NCBI GenBank assembly: GCA_030491005.1
Contig: JAKZMJ010000005.1
Location: forward strand, 1 to 64,000
Length of the DNA: 64,000 nt
From: Sulfurospirillum sp.
GTDB lineage: Bacteria; Campylobacterota; Campylobacteria; Campylobacterales; Arcobacteraceae
Reading direction: 5' to 3'
Under the pieces are notes generated by a model. The model was not told where the DNA came from and ran no database searches. It saw nothing but the letters and a program-made list of their open reading frames with translations. The position numbers and the translations under genes are program-made. The first letter of the stretch is position 1, and every line of letters starts with the position of its first letter. Positions 6,537 to 25,195 of the stretch are shown here, one piece after another.

Positions 6537-6797
6537 ATGAAATTAAGTGAAAAATTAAAAGAAGAGATGATGGATTTATGTACAAAGCATAAAGCTCACC
6601 CTGATAAAGTCAATCAAAAAATAGATGAATTAGATATTAATATAGATGATATTGATGACTATCTTAACAAGCAAATAGAGATTGATAAAAATACACTAGT
6701 AATGCTAGATGAAAATATAACAAATAATGATAAATTACAGACAATATTTGAAACAACAATAGCATCGTTAATTTTTTACCAAGCAAAACTAAAGTGA
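6537..6797 (+). CDS. Hypothetical small acidic helical protein
   Basis: An 86-residue, strongly charged and mostly helical protein (IDELDINIDDIDDYLNKQI) with no family recognised. It has a strong ribosome binding site (AGGAGG at 6524) inside a short upstream frame of 18 codons (6477-6536, MTNETKKEYRIIDIFRRF). Its stop overlaps a perfect hairpin, then comes the antitoxin-toxin pair. The same gene without its 5' end lies next to element copy 1. The linkage in both copies suggests it travels with the toxin-antitoxin genes. Confidence 0.6.
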   Translation: MKLSEKLKEEMMDLCTKHKAHPDKVNQKIDELDINIDDIDDYLNKQIEIDKNTLVMLDENITNNDKLQTIFETTIASLIFYQAKLK

Positions 6798-6816
6798 AAT
6801 TCACTTTAGTTTTGCT
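6782..6816 (+). terminator. Perfect hairpin before the antitoxin gene
   Basis: Identical to the hairpin at 2403-2437: 17-base arms around a single A. It separates the 86-aa gene from the toxin-antitoxin operon and may act as a terminator or as an mRNA boundary. Confidence 0.6.
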
Positions 6817-6848: not shown

Positions 6849-7106
6849 ATGCAAACAATAGCAGTACAAATTCAAGATAACTATGTGCAAAATTTTATGA
6901 GTTATGTTAATAGTCATAGTGAAAATATTACTATATCTAAAGATAAAAACTTAGAACTTGACCCATATTTTTATGAAAGAAAAAGAGAATTAGCACGAGT
7001 TATTGAAGAGTCTGAAAATGGCACAATGGAAATGTTATCACAAGAACAATACGATGATGAAATGAAAATATTTTTTAAAGATTTAAAAACTAATGCAAAT
7101 CTTTAA
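6849..7106 (+). CDS. Type II antitoxin-like protein
   Basis: An 85-residue protein identical to that at 2470-2727. The ATG at 6849 is preceded by GGAG with good spacing. It overlaps the toxin gene by 14 bp, a typical translational coupling in type II toxin-antitoxin operons, where the antitoxin is made first, neutralises the toxin and represses the operon. The N-terminal 40 residues are shared with the antitoxin of cassette 3; no named family can be assigned with confidence. Confidence 0.78.
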   Translation: MQTIAVQIQDNYVQNFMSYVNSHSENITISKDKNLELDPYFYERKRELARVIEESENGTMEMLSQEQYDDEMKIFFKDLKTNANL

Positions 7107-7368
7107 AACTAGGTTATATAAAACTCAATTATTAACTATTTTAAAACATATATCAGTAGATAAAATTAGTGCAAGTGAAAACTTTCATAATGACTTAAAT
7201 ATGCAAATAGAAAATTTAATACATTCACCACTTAAATGTAGACAATCATTTTATTCTGATGATGAGAATGTTAGAGATATGATATTTAAAAAATATACTA
7301 TTCAATTTAAAATCTATGAACATAAAATAAGTATATTAAAAGTATTTAACAAAAATAAACCGTCATAG
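7093..7368 (+). CDS. RelE/ParE superfamily toxin-like protein
   Basis: A 91-residue protein. Its C-terminal half, VRDMIFKKYTIQFKIYE followed by ILKVFNKNKPS, matches the closing strands of RelE/ParE toxins (I-R-x-x-x-x-K-x-Y-x-I-x-Y then I-x-x-x-x-x-N-x-N-x-P). Such proteins cut ribosome-bound mRNA or poison gyrase. It follows and overlaps the antitoxin. The copy at 2714 is truncated. This is the only intact toxin of this type in the window. Confidence 0.75.
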   Translation: MQIFKTRLYKTQLLTILKHISVDKISASENFHNDLNMQIENLIHSPLKCRQSFYSDDENVRDMIFKKYTIQFKIYEHKISILKVFNKNKPS

Positions 7369-14108: not shown

Positions 14109-14450
14109 TTATAATCCTGCAATAACTGATATTTCTACTAACATATCTTCACTACACATTTTAGCTTCGACACAAGCACGTGCTGGTTGTAAACCATCTA
14201 CTATCCACTTATTCCAAACATCATTCATTGCAGCAAAATCTTTCATATTTTTTAAATATATAGTTGCTGATAATACTTTTGTTTTATCTAAATTAATTTC
14301 GCTCAATAAATCATCAACTTTTTTTAACATAACTTGTGTTTGTTCTGTAATATCTATTCCCACAGCAGTTTGACCACATAAATATGCTACATTTCCATGA
14401 ATTACTGCCTTACTCATCTTCCCTGCTGGTTTGTGTCTTTTTATTTCCAT
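14109..14450 (-). CDS. RidA family enamine/imine deaminase
   Basis: A 113-residue member of the YjgF/YER057c/UK114 (RidA) family, trimeric enzymes that hydrolyse reactive 2-aminoacrylate and other imines. Seen: KMSKAVIHGNVAYLCGQTA at the N-terminus and LQPARACVEAKMCSEDMLVEI with the substrate-binding Arg at about residue 92. It lacks the longer C-terminus of RidA proper, which suits the Rid6/Rid7-like subgroups often beside amino-acid oxidases. Last gene of the operon, 27 bp after a second RidA paralogue. Likely clears the imine made by the flavoenzymes upstream. Confidence 0.85.
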   Translation of the reverse strand: MEIKRHKPAGKMSKAVIHGNVAYLCGQTAVGIDITEQTQVMLKKVDDLLSEINLDKTKVLSATIYLKNMKDFAAMNDVWNKWIVDGLQPARACVEAKMCSEDMLVEISVIAGL

Positions 14451-14477
14451 TTTCTCACCTTTTTTTAATTTGATATA

Positions 14478-14831
14478 TTATATCTTTTTAACTGCAATTA
14501 GAGTGATTTCAATTTTAATATTACCTTCTAATGCAACACCTAAACAAGCCCTTTGTGGCCATTTGTCTTTATTCTTGCCAATCCACTTGCACCATATTTT
14601 ATCCATTTTTTGCTTATTGGTCATATCTGAAATATAGACTTGTGCAGATAAAATATTTTTTTTAGAAGATTGCATTTCTTTTAAATTTAAATCTAAAGTT
14701 TTAAGGGTTTGTTTCATTTGTTTTTTAAAACTAAGACTATTTTCCTTAGCCGTAGCAACCGTAAAGACTAAATCTTTATATCCACTTGTCTTATTCCTTC
14801 CTTTAAATATACCCCGTATTCTTTTAATCAA
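14478..14831 (-). CDS. RidA family protein, divergent paralogue
   Basis: A 117-residue RidA-fold protein. KDLVFTVATAKE replaces the usual G-x-Q-x-A strand, and WPQRACLGVAL keeps the conserved Arg-Ala-C/V region. It overlaps the stop of the FAD enzyme gene upstream by 4 bp, so it is translationally coupled to it. Two different RidA proteins in one operon suggest either two imine products or division of labour. Sequence is more divergent than the following gene, so activity is less certain. Confidence 0.75.
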   Translation of the reverse strand: MIKRIRGIFKGRNKTSGYKDLVFTVATAKENSLSFKKQMKQTLKTLDLNLKEMQSSKKNILSAQVYISDMTNKQKMDKIWCKWIGKNKDKWPQRACLGVALEGNIKIEITLIAVKKI

Positions 14832-16234
14832 ATTTTACTTCCATCTAAAAAAGTTATTTCACTTGCTAAAATATTAATATTTGTAGGTTTAAGTGGAGCT
14901 CTTGCTTTGATATGACTAGTATCATTATGACCCTTACTTTGTAAAATAGCACGAACAAGTTCGGAGCAAGTCTTACCTTGACAGTTTCCCATTCCAGAGC
15001 GTGTTTTTTTCTTAATTGAATTGATACTTGTTAAGCCAAATTCAATTGCATTAGTAATATCTTTTATTTTAATATTCTCACATCTACAAATTGTGGTATT
15101 TTTATCAAGGTTTCTTATCTCATTTAAATTAAAACTTTGCATATTGCTTAAAGTCTTAGCAAAAATAACAGCTTTTTTTCTATAAATAAATAATTTTTCT
15201 GTTAATTTACTATATAAATTAAAATCTATAAGTTTAAGTTTAAATAAAACTGAGTACGCACAAATTTCTCCATCAATTTGAGCTTTATCTGCTCCCCCAA
15301 TGCAATTAGATGCTCCTGCTGAAAATATATTATCTTGAGTAGTTTCTAGTAGCTTATTAGTTTTTAAAACTAAACCACCTAGTTTGTCATCATATATTGT
15401 TTGGCAACCTGCAGCTGTTGCTACATCAAGATTAGCAATTAAGCCATTGCCAATTGCAAGAAGAGAAGTTTTTTCTTCAAATTCAGTTCCTTTTATTATA
15501 TTTCCTTTACTATCAATTTTTGCTAATATTATACTTTCAAGTTTGTTATTACCCTTTGCTTCTATAACTTTTATATTATTTTTAGCATTCATCTGAATTT
15601 TAATCATATTTAATGACATTGCAAATAAATCTGCTCTTTTATCGCTTGAACTTAAAGCTGAACTAAGCATTTTAAATTTATTAGAAAGACTATTTCCATC
15701 ATAAAAAGACTTAATCTTCCCACCTTTCTCTAGCCAAGTAACAGCTGCTGCATAATGTAAGATGCCACTTCCTGCTATTGTTATTTCATTAGCAAATACT
15801 TTTCCACTTGTTTTTAATAAAATTTGCATAGCCCCAGTTGTAATGATACCTGGTAAATCCCAACCTTTAAATGGTTCTACTATTTCGCGTGCGCCCATTG
15901 CAAATATAATAGTTTTTGGTTTAATCATCTTTAAACTATCATCTTTGAGTTTTACCAAAATTTCTTTTTCTTTATTAATAAAAATTAGTTCAGATTTATT
16001 CAGATATGTGATTGAACTTTCATTGAATTTTTTTACTAAACTTAATCCTTTGTTGTATGTAGGGATTTTGGAACTATTTTGTGTTCCATCTTTATACCTA
16101 ATAAATTGCCCACCTGCTTGAATTCCTTCATCAATGACACAAATATTGAGATTATAATTTTCTAATAATAATGAAGCTTTTATACCAGCAAATCCAGCAC
16201 CTACAATTACAACATCATAATCTTTATTCATCAT
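14828..16234 (-). CDS. FAD/NAD(P)-binding oxidoreductase with BFD-like [2Fe-2S] domain (HcnB-like)
   Basis: A 468-residue flavoprotein. The N-terminal dinucleotide site is VIVGAGFAGIKASLLL (residues about 8-23), and a second nucleotide fold lies at FANEITIAGSGI near residue 148. The C-terminal 90 residues carry the cysteines of a BFD-like cluster: CRCE near residue 388 and GNCQGKTC near 422. This is the architecture of the HcnB subunit of cyanide synthase and of the alpha subunit of D-hydroxyproline or octopine/nopaline dehydrogenases. It overlaps its partner [2Fe-2S] gene by 11 bp. In this context a role in oxidising an imported amino acid is favoured. Confidence 0.85.
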   Translation of the reverse strand: MMNKDYDVVIVGAGFAGIKASLLLENYNLNICVIDEGIQAGGQFIRYKDGTQNSSKIPTYNKGLSLVKKFNESSITYLNKSELIFINKEKEILVKLKDDSLKMIKPKTIIFAMGAREIVEPFKGWDLPGIITTGAMQILLKTSGKVFANEITIAGSGILHYAAAVTWLEKGGKIKSFYDGNSLSNKFKMLSSALSSSDKRADLFAMSLNMIKIQMNAKNNIKVIEAKGNNKLESIILAKIDSKGNIIKGTEFEEKTSLLAIGNGLIANLDVATAAGCQTIYDDKLGGLVLKTNKLLETTQDNIFSAGASNCIGGADKAQIDGEICAYSVLFKLKLIDFNLYSKLTEKLFIYRKKAVIFAKTLSNMQSFNLNEIRNLDKNTTICRCENIKIKDITNAIEFGLTSINSIKKKTRSGMGNCQGKTCSELVRAILQSKGHNDTSHIKARAPLKPTNINILASEITFLDGSKI

Positions 16235-16472
16235 GATTAATCACCATATTCTTATTTACCAATGTTTGACAAGCAAGCACTGTTTTGCCTCCTTTTAACT
16301 CTATTAAGCATTCGTGGCAAACACCCATGCCACAAAATCCTCCTCTATTTCTTCCTTGTGCTTTACCTAAAGAATAAATAGATTCTTTCATTAAAAAAAA
16401 GAGTAATAATTCATTTTCTTCTACTTCAAACTGCACTTTTCCTATTGTAATTTTATAGAAAGTATTATTCAT
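16224..16472 (-). CDS. Small [2Fe-2S] ferredoxin-type subunit (HcnA-like)
   Basis: An 82-residue protein with a plant-ferredoxin-type cluster motif: FCGMGVCHECLI (C-x4-C-x2-C) near residues 46-57 and a fourth cysteine in TVLACQTL near residue 68. It corresponds to HcnA or the gamma subunit of three-part amino-acid dehydrogenases, passing electrons between the two flavoproteins and the membrane chain. It sits between the two flavin genes with a 1-bp overlap upstream and 11-bp overlap downstream, which supports a single complex. Confidence 0.87.
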   Translation of the reverse strand: MNNTFYKITIGKVQFEVEENELLLFFLMKESIYSLGKAQGRNRGGFCGMGVCHECLIELKGGKTVLACQTLVNKNMVINHDE

Positions 16473-17632
16473 TATGTCTCTCCTTTATTATCAAATCTTG
16501 AAGGATTAAAGTTCTCCATATCAAATTGGGGTTCTATGTCATCTATCATTTCACTGACCATTTGTCCAGTAATTGCACAAAGTGTAATACCATCCCCTTC
16601 ATGACCACAGGCAAAAAAGAAACCTTTTACTTTTTTATGTTCACCAATAAATGGTAAGCCATCAGGCGTATATGGTCTAAATCCTACAAAGTCTCTAATT
16701 ATTTTTAGTTTTCCTAAACCTGGAAGTGTTTTTTTTATTCCTCTTGCGATACTTTGAATTGCTTTTATTGTACTTGTATCATCAAAATCTACAAATTCTC
16801 TTGTTGAACCTATTAAAATATTTCCATTTTTCACTTGCTCAACGGCAAATCCAGTTCCTTCTTTTGCAATTTCAGGATCATATTTAGCTGCTATATATGT
16901 TGCTGACATTAAAGGGTATTTTAATACTTTTTTCATAGGTGCCGTTACCATAATCTCACCTTTTCTAGGTTTCAATGGAATATCTAAACCTACCATAGCA
17001 GCTATTTTAGCTCCATATGAACCAGCTGCATTTATTACTAAATCAGCTTCAAAGTTGCCTTTATTTGTAATTACTTTTGTAACAGTTTTATTCTCAAGAA
17101 TGATATCTTCAACATTTGTATTTTGGTGAATAATTACACCTTTTTTAACAGCATTTGCTAATAAACCATGAGTTAATTTTAATGGGTTTATAACAGAATC
17201 ATCTCTTGAAAAGCTACCTCCTAAAACATCTTTTGCAACTTGTGGAACCATTTCTTTAATTGTTTTGGCATCAATCATTTCAATATTTGCCCCACTTTGA
17301 TTTTGTTTTATTACATAGTCTTTTAATATATCCATTTCCCTTTTTGAATGAATAATAATTACACCACCTCTTCTTTCTAGTTCTAAATCTACACCTAGCT
17401 CTTTTTGTAAATCTTCATATAACTTGATACTAGCTATTGCCATATTTAAATGAATGCCAGGTTTTTTTGATTGTAAGAACATCAAGCCTTCACACGCACT
17501 AGAACTTGCTGTTTCTAGTAAATTTTCTTTTTCAAGAATTATTGGTTTATAACCTCTTTTAGCTAAATTCCAAGCAATTGATGCACCAATAATGCCAGCT
17601 CCTATAATGACTATTTTTTTTGTTTTTGGCAT
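16472..17632 (-). CDS. FAD-dependent amino-acid oxidoreductase (DAO family, HcnC-like)
   Basis: A 386-residue DAO-family flavoprotein. The FAD-binding site VIIGAGIIGASIAWNLAKRG opens the protein; ADLVINAAGSYGAKIA near residue 200 and the C-terminal FRPYTPDGLPFIGEHKKVKG with GHEGDGITLC (residues about 320-365) are diagnostic for glycine/D-amino-acid/hydroxyproline oxidases. It would be the catalytic beta subunit that takes two electrons from an amine to give an imine. First of five tightly packed genes, 51 bp after the TRAP permease stop. Confidence 0.88.
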   Translation of the reverse strand: MPKTKKIVIIGAGIIGASIAWNLAKRGYKPIILEKENLLETASSSACEGLMFLQSKKPGIHLNMAIASIKLYEDLQKELGVDLELERRGGVIIIHSKREMDILKDYVIKQNQSGANIEMIDAKTIKEMVPQVAKDVLGGSFSRDDSVINPLKLTHGLLANAVKKGVIIHQNTNVEDIILENKTVTKVITNKGNFEADLVINAAGSYGAKIAAMVGLDIPLKPRKGEIMVTAPMKKVLKYPLMSATYIAAKYDPEIAKEGTGFAVEQVKNGNILIGSTREFVDFDDTSTIKAIQSIARGIKKTLPGLGKLKIIRDFVGFRPYTPDGLPFIGEHKKVKGFFFACGHEGDGITLCAITGQMVSEMIDDIEPQFDMENFNPSRFDNKGET

Positions 17633-17683: not shown

Positions 17684-19591
17684 TTACAAGTCAATAGCTG
17701 TTTTATTTATTGCAAATTTTGTATTAATAACATACAAAGTTAGCATTGCTAATAAACTTCCTGCTATCCTCATCTCAAGTGCTAAATCTACATTTAAAGC
17801 CAAAAATAATCCAAGTGGAGCTAGAACAAGTCTTACTGGTAATCTCATTGTATTTATAAAATACCCAGTAATGGACACTGAAAATAAGGTAAGCCCTAAT
17901 AGTATTGCTGATGTATTTAATATAATCGATACAAAGGTACCTTGCATTAATAACTCAGGAACAAAAAGATATGAGAACCCAACAACATAGCCTCCAATAG
18001 CTAATCTTGTTGCTTGGAAAGCAGTGACTATTGGATCTGCTTTTGATATGGCGGCGGCAGAGTAGGCAGCTATAGATACAGGCGGTGTGGCATCAGCTAA
18101 AATTGCGAAGTAAAAAACAAAAAAGTGTGCAGCCAACATTGGAACATCAAAATTTCCAACTAATGTAGGCACGCCAACTGCTGCAACGACAATATATGCA
18201 GGAGTAGTAGGAATACCCATTCCAAGAACTAAGGTCATAAGAGCAAGTAATAATCCACCTAAAAATAAATTATCTCCTACAACAGATGTTACAACTGCTC
18301 CAATAGAGACTATAAGACCTGTTTTGGTTAAAATTAAAACTAACATATTCGCCCCAACACAAGCAATAGCAATTAGTACAGCATTTCTACCTGCATTAAT
18401 TAAAATTTCAATAGCTTTTTTAAAACCAATTCTAGTATGTTTTCGTAACCAAGAAGCTAAAAATGTTGCACCTATTGAAAGTAATGCCGCGTATGTTGGC
18501 GAAAATCTTAACAATAATAAAGTAAGTAAAATACCTATTGGAATTAAAAGGTGTATATCTTTTATAACTTCTTTCCATGTAGGTAATTCACTTGGTTCTA
18601 AACCTTTTAATCCAAGTTTTCTAGCTTCAAAGTGTACCGTAACAAAAATCATTATAAAGTAGCATAATGAGCCAATTACCGCGGCAACAATAATTTCTGT
18701 ATAAGGTATACCAGTTATTTCAGCCATCACAAATGCACCTGCTCCCATAATAGGTGGAGCACTTTGCCCTCCAACAGAAGCTGCGGTTTCAACTCCACCA
18801 GCAAAAGAAGCCTTGTAGCCTCTTTTCTTCATCATGGGAATTGTAAAGGAGCCAGTTGTAAAAACATTTGAAGAAGAAGAACCAGACATTGAGCCAAATA
18901 AGGCAGAAGTTAATACAGCAATTTTAGCAGGACCTCCTGTATATTTTCCAGCAACTTTTTTACCCAAATTCATAAATAATCGTCCTGTACCACTTCCTTC
19001 AATTACTGAACCAAAGATTAAAAATATCGCAATTAGCGTTGCAGAAATTCCAGTAATCGTTCCAAAAATTCCATTTCCATTAGATAAATACATTGCTTCA
19101 ATAATTTCTTCAAGAGGAATATCTCTAAAATGAAAAATACCTGAGGTATATTCGCTTAAAAATAAATACATAAAACCAATTAGGACTAGACCAAACATCA
19201 CAACTGATACACCTCTTCTAATTGCTTCTAAAACTAGGACTATCATAATTCCACCAAGCATTAGCTCTATTGGTAAAACTTCTGTTACATCTTCGAGCCT
19301 CATATTAATTCTAAAGGCTTCAAAATAAGAATACAAAGCTGGTACGGCAATTAAGACTGCCATTAAATAATCTACAAATCCTGGTTTTGCACTTTCCCTT
19401 CTTTTGGACTTTTCAAAAAATCCTGGTTTCATTAGAAATACTAATGGTAGCAATAAAAATAAGTGAAGTGAGCGTTGCTCTCTTGGCTCAAAAAAGCCTA
19501 TACTTGCTGTATATAAATGAAAGATACTGGATATTAAAGCAATAATCGCAATAACAGTACCAATGTGTATTTTTTTCATATTTTCAATCAT
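17684..19591 (-). CDS. TRAP transporter fused permease (TAXI type, DctQM)
   Basis: About 635 residues with some 17 hydrophobic segments: an N-terminal small-subunit-like part, then the large DctM part. FGSMSGSSSSNVFTTGSF, GGQSAPPIMGAGAF and GMGIPTTPAYIVVAAVGVP are conserved in TAXI-TRAP permeases. Start placed at the ATG at 19591, which has GGGAGAA eight bases before it; the longer frame (from 19630) starts upstream of that site. Drives sodium- or proton-linked uptake of the ligand captured by the TAXI receptor encoded upstream. Confidence 0.9.
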   Translation of the reverse strand: MIENMKKIHIGTVIAIIALISSIFHLYTASIGFFEPREQRSLHLFLLLPLVFLMKPGFFEKSKRRESAKPGFVDYLMAVLIAVPALYSYFEAFRINMRLEDVTEVLPIELMLGGIMIVLVLEAIRRGVSVVMFGLVLIGFMYLFLSEYTSGIFHFRDIPLEEIIEAMYLSNGNGIFGTITGISATLIAIFLIFGSVIEGSGTGRLFMNLGKKVAGKYTGGPAKIAVLTSALFGSMSGSSSSNVFTTGSFTIPMMKKRGYKASFAGGVETAASVGGQSAPPIMGAGAFVMAEITGIPYTEIIVAAVIGSLCYFIMIFVTVHFEARKLGLKGLEPSELPTWKEVIKDIHLLIPIGILLTLLLLRFSPTYAALLSIGATFLASWLRKHTRIGFKKAIEILINAGRNAVLIAIACVGANMLVLILTKTGLIVSIGAVVTSVVGDNLFLGGLLLALMTLVLGMGIPTTPAYIVVAAVGVPTLVGNFDVPMLAAHFFVFYFAILADATPPVSIAAYSAAAISKADPIVTAFQATRLAIGGYVVGFSYLFVPELLMQGTFVSIILNTSAILLGLTLFSVSITGYFINTMRLPVRLVLAPLGLFLALNVDLALEMRIAGSLLAMLTLYVINTKFAINKTAIDL

Positions 19592-19711: not shown

Positions 19712-20671
19712 TTACTTAATGTAACCCATTTCTTTATAGTACTTAATAGCTCCTGGATGAACAGGAATTGACGCATTTTTAATTGCAGTCTTACAAGAGA
19801 AAAACTTCATGCTTGAATGAATACTTTCAAGTTTTGATTGATTTTCACAAATTGATTTTGTAATTTTATACACTGTATTAGTAGAAAGGTCAGTACTTAC
19901 AATTAAAGCAGTTGACATATTGCCTGTTGTTGCATTTTTATTTTGTCCTTTATAAGTTCCTTTTTTAATTACTCCTGTGTTATAACCCCAATTTTTCTTT
20001 AAACTAGCCATTAAATTAGCTGGTAAAGTTGTAACTTCTCCATCTCTACTTAATAGCATATCAATTACCGCAGCACCAGGAACACCCAATTTTACAACTG
20101 CATAATTAACTAATCCATCTTTAAATTGACTAGCTACTTCTGAGTATGAACCATGAACAACTCTAAATCCTCTTTTCTTTAAATCTTGGTAAGAAGTTTT
20201 GTAATATGCCATAATCCATCTAAATACTAATTCATCTGAAGAACCAACTTTATTAATAGCAATTTTTTCATTTTTACCTTTTGTTAATAAATTAGCAATA
20301 TTTGTATACTTTGAATTTTTTGATCGTACAACATGAAGAATTTGATCAGAAAGTCCTTGTCCAATTAATGCAACTTTGTTATGTTTTTTAGTATACATAC
20401 CTTTTGCATTAACAGCTAGGTAAGAAACTGTATCAAGACCCATTGCAATTTGGCTTCTATTTTTTTGTATTTTAGAAGGATTTGCTGTTCCACCACCTGG
20501 AACTACTTTTATATTCATATCTGGATTTTCACTAGTAATAATTTTAGCAATTCCAGCTGACATTGTATACCAACCACCACCTAATGAACCTGCTGACCAC
20601 TCTATAGTCTCTGCTATTGATAAAGACGCACTTAAACAAACTCCTGCTATAATACAATTTAACTTTTTCAT
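19712..20671 (-). CDS. TAXI family TRAP transporter solute-binding protein
   Basis: A 319-residue periplasmic receptor with a signal peptide (cleavage after SLSIAE, about residue 20). EWSAGSLGGGWYTMSAGIAK is the TAXI N-terminal motif and VVPGGGTANPSKIQ follows; such receptors bind glutamate, glutamine, 2-oxoglutarate or related acids. KVGSSDELVFRWIM lies mid-protein. It pairs with the permease downstream. The bound compound cannot be read directly, but an amino acid fits the oxidase, racemase and RidA genes of the locus. Confidence 0.9.
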   Translation of the reverse strand: MKKLNCIIAGVCLSASLSIAETIEWSAGSLGGGWYTMSAGIAKIITSENPDMNIKVVPGGGTANPSKIQKNRSQIAMGLDTVSYLAVNAKGMYTKKHNKVALIGQGLSDQILHVVRSKNSKYTNIANLLTKGKNEKIAINKVGSSDELVFRWIMAYYKTSYQDLKKRGFRVVHGSYSEVASQFKDGLVNYAVVKLGVPGAAVIDMLLSRDGEVTTLPANLMASLKKNWGYNTGVIKKGTYKGQNKNATTGNMSTALIVSTDLSTNTVYKITKSICENQSKLESIHSSMKFFSCKTAIKNASIPVHPGAIKYYKEMGYIK

Positions 20672-20800: not shown

Positions 20801-21532
20801 TTAGAATTCCTCAATATTACATCGCTTAGGTTGTACTGACTGTTGGAACCACGTAATTCCTGTATAAATATTATAAATAGGTAGTCCTGTTGCTTTATAA
20901 ATATCACTTGCATATGGAGGCATATTTGTACATTCGCATAAAATAGCACCAACTTGTGGATTTTCTCTTTGTAATTTTAATGCAGCTTCAATCATTTCTT
21001 TACGACACAAATCAAAGTCTATTTCTGTTTTATCTTCTAAAATTCCATTATAAAACTCTCTTGTTCCAATATTTTCCATTCCTACAATAGGAACATCAAG
21101 TGGAATTTGTGCAGCATCTAAATATTCAGAAGTTAAACTCTCTTTTGAAAAAGTTAAAAGTCCAGGAACTTTATTCTTTCCTAATGTTTGTTGAATTAAA
21201 TTATATTGAATTAAAGAAGATGAAAACACTGGGACACCAAGTGCCTCTATTAATTCTTCTTGAAAAATAATTAAAAAACCACAGTTTGTAGCAATAGCAT
21301 CAACTCCCTTGTCAATTAATCTCTTTCCCATTTTAATAAACTCATCTAAAGTACCTTTTGCTTTTAACTTAACAACTTTGCTTACACTAGAACCTAAAAC
21401 TGGCTCAAAATGTATATGAAATGGCCATGTGTTGGCATTTCCTATATCTCCTATAATTCTTGGAAATTTAGTCTCAAGCATAAGCATTCCTATACTTGCA
21501 CCATAAATATTTTTACCGCCTTTTAATTTCAT
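20801..21532 (-). CDS. Aspartate/glutamate racemase superfamily protein
   Basis: A 243-residue protein of the Asp/Glu/hydantoin racemase fold. Both catalytic cysteines of the family are present in the expected settings: ATNCGFL near residue 84 and CECTNMPPYA near residue 200. The fold covers racemases, maleate isomerase and arylmalonate decarboxylase, so the exact reaction is open. Next to a D-amino-acid-type dehydrogenase the simplest reading is conversion of the imported compound to the enantiomer that the dehydrogenase accepts. Follows gntR by 22 bp. Confidence 0.8.
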   Translation of the reverse strand: MKLKGGKNIYGASIGMLMLETKFPRIIGDIGNANTWPFHIHFEPVLGSSVSKVVKLKAKGTLDEFIKMGKRLIDKGVDAIATNCGFLIIFQEELIEALGVPVFSSSLIQYNLIQQTLGKNKVPGLLTFSKESLTSEYLDAAQIPLDVPIVGMENIGTREFYNGILEDKTEIDFDLCRKEMIEAALKLQRENPQVGAILCECTNMPPYASDIYKATGLPIYNIYTGITWFQQSVQPKRCNIEEF

Positions 21533-21554: not shown

Positions 21555-22196
21555 TTAATTAAAAACATCTTCTAGTCCAATTAACTTGGCAAACTTATGG
21601 ATATGACTCTTAACTTCTTTTTGTAATTTAGTAATCTCTTGATTTTCTACCATTTTTATTCTTTTTTCCCAATCATTAATCGTATCTTGCATTGACCTCA
21701 TCTTATGTCTCTTTGCAAACCAAGTCCTTGCAGAAATATTATGTAATTGTTTTAAAGTTATTTCTAGTTTTTTATTTCCTACAGATTCATAATAAATGCT
21801 ATGAATTTTATTTGTTTCATTTTTAAATTCACTTATAGTTAGGCTATTTATATTTTTTTGTAGATTAAATAAAATGTAATGGATTTTATTTAACTGTTCT
21901 TTTGTTATACGCAAAGGCACAAAACTAGCTGCTAATATCTCTAGTGGAATTCTCATTTCAAGAGTTTCTTTTATCTCTGTTTGATCTAATTTTTTTATAA
22001 AAGTACCTGATTGAGGAATGGTTTCAATTAAAGAATCTAATTGTAATTTCATAAAAACTTCTCTTAGTGGAGTTCTTCCAATAGTATATTGATCCATTAA
22101 TTCTTTTTCGTTTAGTCTTGTTCCGCAAAGTAATTTTTGTGTAATAATTTTTGCTTGTAAATCTTTATATACAATTTCTTTTTTATTCATCAACAA
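21555..22196 (-). CDS. GntR family transcriptional regulator (FadR/FCD subgroup)
   Basis: A 213-residue regulator. The N-terminal winged helix has GTRLNEKELMDQYTIGRTPLREVFMKLQ (residues about 25-52), the GntR signature, and the C-terminal all-helical FCD domain follows. It heads the operon and probably represses it until the substrate binds. Start: TTG at 22196 has AAAGGA seven bases upstream; the ATG at 22190 is an alternative six bases later. The ribosome-binding region is inside a perfect 30-bp inverted repeat. Confidence 0.88.
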   Translation of the reverse strand: MLMNKKEIVYKDLQAKIITQKLLCGTRLNEKELMDQYTIGRTPLREVFMKLQLDSLIETIPQSGTFIKKLDQTEIKETLEMRIPLEILAASFVPLRITKEQLNKIHYILFNLQKNINSLTISEFKNETNKIHSIYYESVGNKKLEITLKQLHNISARTWFAKRHKMRSMQDTINDWEKRIKMVENQEITKLQKEVKSHIHKFAKLIGLEDVFN

Positions 22197-22260
22197 AAGA
22201 ATATCCTTTCATACTGATATATTAGTATATTAATATATCAGTATGAAAGGATATTCTTTT
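22195..22260 (-). promoter_or_regulatory. Perfect 30-bp inverted repeat over the gntR translation start
   Basis: Left arm 22195-22224 and right arm 22231-22260 are perfectly complementary around a 6-base GTATAT spacer; the arms run AAAAGAATATCC... to ...TGATATATTA. The arm nearer the gene contains the AAAGGA ribosome binding site and first start codon of gntR. The core (ATATTAGTATATTAAT) also has the dyad expected of a GntR operator. It could act as operator, as a hairpin that hides the ribosome binding site, or as a terminator for transcripts arriving from upstream. Confidence 0.7.
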
Positions 22261-22589
22261 TATATAGCATTAACATAGCAATATTAGAATATGTATATAT
22301 TCTTTTTTGAAATATTCATTGAGACTTGTTTTTATGGATTATGAGCAGATGTCAAAAAATTGTTTAAGAGAAGTAGTATTTTATAATTATAGACTATATA
22401 TTGTTTATCCGATTCTTAATTCACTTAAATATATAGAATTACAAGGTTAAAAAATTTTAGGAAAGACTTAACATTTGTTTTACAATCTCCCACTTAGCTA
22501 TATTGTTTGAAGGGAGATTGGACGATTATTTAGATATGTAACTTTGATATATGTGGTGATAGATGCAAAATTTATAAGACTTTGCTTTA
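22261..22589. other. Intergenic region without a recognised gene
   Basis: No plausible reading frame was seen. The only structure is a 9-base inverted repeat, CAATCTCCC (22483-22491) and GGGAGATTG (22512-22520), with a 20-base loop, 70 bp downstream of the DUF1097 gene on the minus strand. It may be that gene's terminator. The promoter of the gntR operon should also lie in this stretch. Confidence 0.5.
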
Positions 22590-23111
22590 TTATTTTGTTT
22601 TTATCATATCTCCTAATTTTGCAGATGCAAATCCAAATAAAGCTCCTAAAATAATAGATAAGGACATAATAACTATTGCATTACTTGAATTAAAAGTACT
22701 CAAAGCTTCTATTGTTAATTGATTTTGTGTTTGTAAGATATAAGCAAAAGTACTTGCATAGCCAAAAACAGTTGCAGGAATGGCACTTAAAAGTGGTAAA
22801 TGTGCTGCTAAACAAAATATTAGTACAGAAATTGATACAGCTATACCTGCCCAAACTGGAAGTGTTAATACAGCTGCTAAAGGTATAGTTAAAATTGCAA
22901 GTGCTGTAAGCCAAGCACAAATAATTCCAAATATTCCACATACTATTATATTTTTAATAGCATCACTATTAGCACCAAGAGCAAAAAAAGCACCCCAAGA
23001 AATAAATATTCCCCATATTAAAACTATCCCACCTAATGGTCCAAGAGCTAACCATGTTGCTATTCCTCCAAGTATCGAAATACTAATTGATAATCCTACT
23101 AAAGCTGTCAT
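22590..23111 (-). CDS. DUF1097 family integral membrane protein
   Basis: A 173-residue, highly hydrophobic protein with about five membrane segments, glycine- and alanine-rich (GGIATWLALGPLGG..., WGIFISWGAFFALG). The pattern and length match DUF1097 proteins such as YcdZ of enterobacteria. Function of the family is not established. It stands alone, with large gaps on both sides. Confidence 0.75.
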   Translation of the reverse strand: MTALVGLSISISILGGIATWLALGPLGGIVLIWGIFISWGAFFALGANSDAIKNIIVCGIFGIICAWLTALAILTIPLAAVLTLPVWAGIAVSISVLIFCLAAHLPLLSAIPATVFGYASTFAYILQTQNQLTIEALSTFNSSNAIVIMSLSIILGALFGFASAKLGDMIKTK

Positions 23112-23530
23112 AATAATTCCTTTTATTCAATTTTAAATAAAAAATCATTTCATAATATATGTTTAAAAAATAATCTCATATTCATTTATTAAGCAAATAA
23201 TAACAAATTTTTATAGCCTATATATAGCCTGTATATTATGATCTAAGATAATTAAAATTCATTGGGTAAAAGATTTAAAATGCCTTATATACTGACATCA
23301 AGATATAAAAATAATTATTTTTTATCAAAAACTAAAAGTAATATTGTTAATAAAGACTTATAAAAGTGAAAAACTAAGATTTTTTAATGAATTTATGGAT
23401 TAAATAGCATTTAAATAGCATTTGACTAACAAAAACTTGCTTAACGGAAATTTAAATGTAAAATGTATATAGGGAAGTTTTGTAGTAAATAGCCCACCAA
23501 GTAGGCTACTTAAAGGCTTAAATGAAGTTT
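23112..23530. other. Intergenic region without a recognised gene
   Basis: AT-rich and without a convincing reading frame on either strand. It contains short direct repeats (TATAGCCTATATATAGCCTG near 23212; ATAGCATTT twice near 23405) and a weak AGCC...GGCT hairpin near 23490-23510 that could assist termination after groEL. It must also contain the promoter of the DUF1097 gene. Confidence 0.4.
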
Positions 23531-23555
23531 GTAATCTGAACTTATGTCAGATTAC
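23531..23555 (-). terminator. Hairpin overlapping the groEL stop codon
   Basis: GTAATCTGA and TCAGATTAC form a perfect 9-bp stem with a 7-base loop; the stem includes the groEL stop codon. There is no strong T run, so it may be an mRNA 3'-end stabiliser or a weak terminator. Confidence 0.5.
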
Positions 23556-25195
23556 ATTCCCATACCTCCCATGCCTCCCATACCACCCATATCTGGCATA
23601 GCAGGAGCTGCTGGAGTACCATTTTCTTTTATATCTGTAACAGTTGCTTCTGTTGTTAATAATAATGAAGCAACAGAAATAGCATTTTGCATAGCAACTC
23701 TCTCAACTTTTGCAGGATCAACAATACCAGCTTCAAACATATCTACATATTGTCCATTTGCAGCATTAAAACCTAAATTTTCATTTGTAGATTTTGAAAC
23801 TTCATTTGCTACAACACCAGCATCAAAACCAGCATTAAGTGCAATTTGCTTAAGTGGCGCAGAAATTGCTCTTAATACAATATCAGCACCAATTTGCTCA
23901 TCACCATCAAGCTCTAAAGATACTTTTGCAGCTGCCCTAATTAATGCAGCCCCACCACCAATAACGATACCTTCTTCAACAGCGGCTCTTGTAGCACTTA
24001 GGGCATCATCAACTCTATCTTTTTTCTCTTTCATTTCAGTCTCACTTGCAGCGCCTACTTTAATAACGGCAACTCCTCCACTTAATTTTGCCAATCTTTC
24101 TTGTAATTTTTCCTTATCATAATCAGAGCTTGTACTCTCAATCTCTGCTTTTATTTGATTTACTCTTGATTTAACAGCCGTTGGTGTACCTGCACCATTT
24201 ACAATTGTTGTATTGTCTTTATCTATTACAACTCTTGCAGCCGTTCCTAAAGATGATATATCAGCCGTTTCTAGTTTCATTCCCATTTCTTCAGCAATAA
24301 CAGTACCACCTGTTAAAATAGCAATATCTTCAAGCATAGCTTTTCTTCTATCACCAAATCCTGGAGCTTTAACTGCTGCAATATTTAAAGAACCTCTTAA
24401 TCTATTTACAACTAAAGTTGCTAATGCTTCACCATCTACATCTTCAGAAATGATTAATAAAGGACGACCTGCTTTATTAACTGCTTCTAAAATAGGTAAC
24501 ATTTCTTTTAAATTTGATATTTTTTTATCATATAATAAAATAAATGGATTTTCCATCTCTGTTGTCATTTTTTCTGTATTTGTTACAAAATAAGGAGATA
24601 AATACCCTCTATCAAATTGCATACCTTCAACAACATCTAGCTCATCAGAAATTCCTTTAGCTTCTTCAACAGTAATAACACCATCTTTTCCAACTTTTTC
24701 CATAGCTTTTGCTATCATTGAACCAATAGCTTTATCGCTATTAGCTGATATGGTTGCGACTTGTTCTATTTCTGTTTGATTTGCTACAACTCTTGAAGCA
24801 GCTTTTAAGTGAGCTAAAATACACTCACTTGCTTTATCCATTCCTCTTTTTAATGAAATCGGATTAGCTCCTGCTGTCACATTTCTTAGACCTTCTTTAA
24901 AAACACTATATGCTAAAATAGTTGCAGTAGTAGTACCATCACCTGCTTCATCGGCAGTTTTTGATGCTACTTCTTTTACTAGTTGTGCACCCATATTCTC
25001 TAAAGTATCAGATAGTTCAATTTCTCTTGCAACTGATACACCATCTTTAGTAATAGTGGGAGCTCCGAATGATTTTTGTAAAAGTACATTTCTTCCTCTT
25101 GGACCCATTGTAACTTTTACAGCATCTGTTAATTTCTCAACACCTAAAAATAATTTATTTCTTGCTTCATCACTGAATAGTACTTCTTTTGCCAT
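23552..25195 (-). CDS. groL: Chaperonin GroEL (60 kDa)
   Basis: A 547-residue full-length Gro[16 protein letters not shown] at the start, [13 protein letters not shown] (nucleotide site) near residue 86, [17 protein letters not shown] near 280, [10 protein letters not shown] near 413, and the terminal [11 protein letters not shown] repeat. It forms the double-ring folding chamber with GroES, which is encoded 43 bp upstream. Transcribed from the CIRCE-controlled promoter before groES. Nothing unusual. Confidence 0.99.

Follow-up and report, generated by a model that had tools for sequence, protein, structure and literature searches.

The closest known design to the site described here appears to be the three-repeat operator of the Escherichia coli GntR-family regulator NanR. 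The available text of the NanR study describes three dimers packing on the three short repeats of a (GGTATA)3-repeat operator, with at least two repeats needed for tight binding, and attributes this packing to an N-terminal extension of the protein (PMC8012715). For the FadR subfamily, the accessible part of a published account places extra half-sites often 7-12 nt from the operator centre (PMC4494728). In addition, excerpts of two papers on inverted repeats report that template switching makes imperfect repeats more perfect in E. coli (PMC7202029) and propose it as a maker of hairpins (PMC8794818). Literature searches on GntR palindromes, leader hairpins, template-switched operators and Arcobacter GntR regulators returned no account of a site such as the one below, as judged from the result listings.

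The DNA analysed here is a 64,000-nucleotide stretch from a Sulfurospirillum sp. (contig JAKZMJ010000005.1, positions 1 to 64,000; hereafter the window), in which a long palindrome covers the upstream region of a gntR gene (Table 1). The initial annotation had described it as a perfect inverted repeat with two 30-base arms and a 6-base spacer, and this anatomy was confirmed by a repeat finder and by an exact scan of the window. The repeat finder drew the arms as 22195-22227 and 22228-22260, at 97% complementarity. On the gntR strand the site reads AAAAGAATATCCTTTCATACTGATATATTA-ATATAC-TAATATATCAGTATGAAAGGATATTCTTTT, then GTTGATG, and two of the three central pairs within the spacer are complementary too. 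The arm next to the gene had been said to include both AAAGGA and the TTG start; it contains AAAGGA and, of the TTG, the first two bases.

Perfect arms of this length are rare. The runner-up in the window reaches 17 pairs; in five first-order Markov sequences of window length the longest arm was 12. Twenty 20-kb samples of the same genome (400 kb out of its 2.69 Mb) gave a maximum of 20, a sample of 20 stretches (400 kb) from a relative, G111, gave 18, and one 400-kb Markov control gave 12. The palindrome is genuine and unusual, and a chance origin is excluded.

Table 1. The palindrome, its component parts and the neighbouring genes, with positions in the window
Feature	Coordinates	Strand	Basis or remark
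Whole inverted repeat, 30+6+30	22195..22260	.	Repeat finder and exact scan
Inner operator-like core, 30 bp, ACTGATATATTAATATACTAATATATCAGT	22213..22242	-	Counterpart of 22-bp ACTAATATATTAGTATACCAGT in G111/G114
Box 1, TGATATATTA	22231..22240	-	TGnTATATT could double as extended -10
Box 2, TAATATACTA	22223..22232	-	Palindrome centre
Box 3, TAATATATCA	22215..22224	-	Candidate promoter (TAATAT; TTCATA 17 nt upstream)
Gene-side outer arm, 18 bp, with ribosome-binding site	22195..22212	-	Likely original
Far outer arm, 18 bp, exact reverse complement of gene-side arm	22243..22260	-	Likely copy
Shine-Dalgarno AAAGGA	22204..22209	-	7 nt before TTG
Conserved tandem box ATAGCATTAACATAGCA (GCTATGTTAATGCTAT on gntR strand)	22264..22280	+	Identical in G111, G114
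gntR, GntR + FCD regulator, likely TTG start	21555..22196	-	Domain matches, G111 alignment
Asp/Glu racemase-like protein, PRK07475 subfamily	20801..21532	-	Domain/model matches
TAXI-type TRAP solute-binding protein	19712..20671	-	Domain/model matches
Fused TRAP permease	17684..19591	-	Domain/model matches
FAD amino-acid oxidase-like, sarcosine-oxidase-alpha-like flavoprotein, two Rid-family proteins	14109..17632	-	Rest of gene run

The gntR product matches PF00392 (E 1.4e-13) and PF07729 (E 2.2e-9), both above the gathering cut-off, and with its N-terminal GntR wHTH and C-terminal FCD domains it belongs to the FadR (FCD) subfamily. The TTG codon at 22194-22196 is the likely start of the gene, because the N terminus it gives, MLMNKK.., lines up with the MPVSKK.. 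of the ATG-started G111 ortholog, and because AAAGGA lies 7 nt ahead of the start in both. The GntR domain begins at residue 5 in the ATG form and at about residue 7 when counted from the TTG. We infer that the run of genes from gntR to the oxidase forms one operon, and its substrate is likewise a deduction. Upstream of gntR, on the same strand, lies a DUF1097 gene. Like NanR, as described in the available text (PMC8012715), the window protein is an FCD-type GntR regulator, here a presumed repressor, with a putative operator of three short repeats ending in TATA in the promoter region. In contrast to the NanR system, the boxes read RATATA and form a palindrome, the N-terminal extension of about 32 residues before the DNA-binding domain is absent, and the protein scores only 22 bits on the NanR model of NCBIfam (NF003011) against a cut-off of 260.

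Two relatives have orthologs of gntR in the same gene order, G111 with 70% protein identity and G114 with 75% over the part that can be read; the upstream neighbour there differs from the DUF1097 gene. The two relatives are close to each other and their orthologous loci are nearly identical. Neither locus contains such a long inverted repeat. The three upstream regions align from the shared tandem box GCTATGTTAATGCTAT through to the start codon: from the tandem box to the operator the distance is 21 nt in the window versus 23 nt in G111, the operator (bounded by ACT...AGT) spans 30 bp versus 22 bp, and from the operator to the start codon there are about 16 nt versus 20 nt. These near-equal spacings on both sides, together with the longer operator, mean that the window has about 8 bp more operator and no inserted element. 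Within the core 14 of 15 pairs are complementary in the window, compared with 8 of 11 in G111; outside it the figures are 18 of 18 compared with 7 of 18, and the outer-arm pairing of the window stops abruptly. The initial annotation had called the palindrome much longer than an ordinary GntR operator, which holds for its length; the operator-like portion is only the inner 30 bp.

These comparisons are based on two near-identical orthologous loci, the only ones among the sequences searched, so that the direction of change rests on a single outgroup. A GntR scan of genome contigs added no wider orthologs, and a scan by racemase alignment returned one locus, L094, which is probably the same record as contig C250 of G114. 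The racemase-like gene occurs in 1 of 397 phylum-wide genomes, namely the window's own, in a sample evidently without G111 and G114, which have the gene; the other genome of the same genus gave no match to the region.

The aligned spacings bear directly on the proposal that a small mobile palindrome or repeat element was inserted before gntR, an idea that the initial annotation had raised and that the exceptional length of the repeat for this genome might encourage. The recommended search of the genome for the same palindrome returned the site itself and nothing else. A REP- or MITE-type element requires multiple copies, and a contig (C30) with an 87% match to the near arm over 31 bp proved to be ordinary sequence without a palindrome. 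Moreover, the operator of the relatives occupies the same place, and the difference from them amounts to a replacement plus a gain of about 8 bp, not an insertion of at least 60 bp. We therefore regard an inserted element as highly improbable.

Instead, with a probability of roughly 0.55, we read the palindrome as an enlarged operator, with flanks mirrored by a template switch, through which an FCD-type GntR repressor would control its own gene. The suggestion of a DNA operator in the initial annotation thus gains support from the comparison with relatives. The operator would lie across the -10 region and leader sequence of the operon that it controls, which comprises gntR and the racemase-like, TAXI/TRAP and amino-acid oxidase-like genes. 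Its working part would be the inner 30 bp with three overlapping boxes, one beyond those of the relatives. Repressor dimers would sit on these boxes, probably cooperatively, and block RNA polymerase until the substrate of the operon released them; cooperativity is unsupported by the NanR precedent, because the window protein lacks the extension of that regulator. The 18-bp outer arms most likely arose as by-products, when a template switch seeded at the operator palindrome mirror-copied the leader with its ribosome-binding site to the far side. The far arm would be the copy and the near arm the original, because in the near arm the ribosome-binding site still has the ancestral spacing. As in the template-switch mutations of quasipalindromes, at least as the excerpted reports describe them (PMC7202029, PMC8794818), an imperfect repeat would have become perfect by copying of the nascent strand; unlike those mutations, the event here is deduced from a single comparison and was not seen as a mutation. 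In a MAFFT alignment the far arm retains some resemblance to the far flank of G111, which a pure overwrite would not predict. We rejected a comparable sequence lying further upstream in G111 (CAATATGAAAGCCTATTC) as the source of the near arm, because its score of 14 was reached by 32 of 500 shuffles and is not significant.

The boxes themselves follow the pattern T.RTATAY.A at 8-bp steps, with three overlapping copies in the window versus two in G111 and G114. Without mismatch, ACTRATATATYAGTAT occurs only before this gntR in each of the three genomes searched, the pattern having been drawn from these very sites. The G111 core TAGTATACCA fits the FadR-subfamily consensus NyGTM-N0-1-KACNy given in the accessible part of the published account (PMC4494728). 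A GT(N)nAC core near the regulator's own gene is thus present by sequence in G111 and G114 (TAGTATACCA), whereas the window centre, TAATATACTA, differs by one G->A change, so that its central box reads AT/AC versus GT/AC. The site resembles FadR-subfamily operators, as that account describes them (PMC4494728), in being an AT-rich palindrome, in the GT(N)nAC core of the G111 ortholog and in having additional boxes 7-12 nt out; it differs from them in its three overlapping boxes, exact 8-bp steps and perfect mirror flanks over the ribosome-binding site.

The double-box arrangement extends beyond these orthologs. We tested the upstream regions of 30 of the 38 GntR loci L004-L041 (omitting L011, L013, L015, L020-L023 and L039, the last being the second fragment of the G114 gene). 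Boxes spaced by 8 bp were found in five of the 30, including a separate group represented by G014 and G084; the remaining 25 had none, and among these L012 carries two boxes 11 bp apart. Of 104 family genomes, 10 contain a strict 18-bp version of the double-box pattern, and in only 5 of the 10 does it precede a gntR. The remaining sites adjoin unrelated genes, and in G119 they are 8-bp simple repeats. Because half of the genomes with the pattern have it near unrelated genes, in G119 as 8-bp repeats, the link of the double box to GntR, while it looks good, is not exclusive, and an origin of the third box by 8-bp slippage is plausible. The G119 sites (L147 on contig C26 and L150 on contig C57; genus g2) consist of TAATATAC 8-bp simple repeats just upstream of unrelated genes, adjoined at L147 by TAATTGG 7-bp repeats, and are possibly variable-length promoter repeats. 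Separately, the gntR upstream regions of L018 and L041 (G015 and G107) and of L012 (G017) carry either paired copies of TTGTCGACAA or a perfect palindrome of 32 bp, probably the operators of other GntR groups.

The G014/G084 group bears on whether the entire 66-bp palindrome could be one selected extended operator, on which several repressor dimers would also cover the outer arms. In G014 and G084 the double boxes lie inside 48-bp imperfect palindromes (21 of 24 and 19 of 24 pairs; 0 of 20000 shuffles in each case), the outer parts of which are alike in both. The two GntR proteins are 81% identical to each other, while that of G014 shares 29% identity with the window protein across 147 residues; GntRs of this type occur in 2 of 104 family genomes. 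Such a precedent favours extended binding, but in the window the outer arms coincide with the ribosome-binding segment, only 7 of the 18 corresponding pairs exist in G111, and binding needs less than perfect identity. Selection on the whole palindrome as an operator is accordingly, in our estimate, distinctly unlikely, and the enlarged operator with by-product arms is the reading we retain.

At the RNA level, everything turns on where transcription starts. RNA containing both arms is predicted to fold at -40.7 kcal/mol (z -10.45) with the ribosome-binding site hidden, and a transcript from 22252 at -33 kcal/mol with AAAGGA fully paired. A transcript from 22246, with 16 nt of the far arm, would form a 16-bp hairpin (-22.8 kcal/mol) that leaves most of the Shine-Dalgarno outside, and those from 22225 or 22212 have no special structure; the G111 leader folds no better than shuffles. 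Pairing of the whole AAAGGA requires a start at 22251 or beyond. The initial annotation had proposed that this hairpin would block translation of gntR and that the site may combine such control with a DNA operator. If transcription began upstream of the palindrome, as a TATAAA at 22259-22264 picked out by eye could in principle allow with a start near 22252, the hairpin would indeed hide the ribosome-binding site and keep gntR translation low or conditional. Against this dual control, the starts predicted for nine sigma-70-like promoter candidates scored in 22190-22300 fall at 22191-22246, none at 22251 or beyond; the hairpin is absent from the G111 and G114 orthologs, so the design is not conserved; and nothing evident would open a perfect 30-bp stem, although the repressor should be produced. 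The promoter evidence is weak in every direction, because a stricter scan recovered none of the nine candidates and found sites no more often than in shuffles. Dual control is thus weakened without being refuted, and we consider it doubtful. Rfam at the gathering score had no match in 22000-23600, and its sub-threshold hits on the palindrome were microRNA hairpin models; a known cis-regulatory RNA family was rejected as an explanation.

On the preferred operator reading, the normal mRNA would probably start in the loop or near arm, and the hairpin would form only in read-through transcripts. An RNA role is therefore possible, mainly in such transcripts, but it is not favoured, because all predicted starts lie below 22251 and the relatives lack the hairpin. 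Striking as this control site beside an apparent nutrient-uptake operon is, it is probably an ordinary DNA switch and not an RNA switch. One form of RNA role would be an insulator, in which the hairpin stops translation or transcription of RNA entering from the DUF1097 gene and leaves gntR to its own promoter. The orientation of DUF1097 fits, and the palindrome with its T-rich tail was flagged on both strands as resembling a terminator (5 hits versus a shuffle mean of 0.0); but the terminator consensus that it matches is crude, the stem has little G+C, the palindrome lies over the gntR leader itself, and the relatives have another upstream gene and no palindrome. We think this quite unlikely. 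A combined reading, in which one template switch fused operator and ribosome-binding site so that the 66 bp serve both as a DNA operator on which several dimers control initiation and, in RNA, as a hairpin silencing transcripts that enter from upstream, strikes us as unlikely too; if true, one mutation would have made a two-level switch.

The site offers a readable example of an operator perhaps growing by one repeat unit, and extended 8-bp-periodic operators are indicated for two separate FCD-type GntR groups in the family. Template switching may mirror a functional leader onto a promoter, which would couple DNA- and RNA-level effects in one step. Should the RNA-switch reading fail, the locus would caution once more against reading much into a hairpin over a ribosome-binding site before the start site is known.

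The tandem box between the palindrome and the DUF1097 gene is a possible activator site. Its motif ATAGCATTNANATAGCA, at 22264-22280 before gntR, recurs at 23404-23420, 293 bp before the DUF1097 gene, and has only three perfect matches in the window's genome (G000), the third lying 89 bp before an amino-acid binding-protein gene (L081). A reversed-pattern control with one mismatch allowed gave one match in G000 and none in G111 or G114. ATAGCATTNANATAGCA looks like a candidate activator site for uptake genes. Also between DUF1097 and gntR, at 22480-22545, the stem-like sequences CAATCTCCC and GGGAGATTG were noticed by eye about 20 bases apart, without a T-run. Elsewhere in the window, two inverted repeats each have an identical second copy about 4.4 kb further on (2403-2437 and 6782-6816; 2694-2729 and 7073-7108), which suggests a duplicated segment in its first 7 kb.
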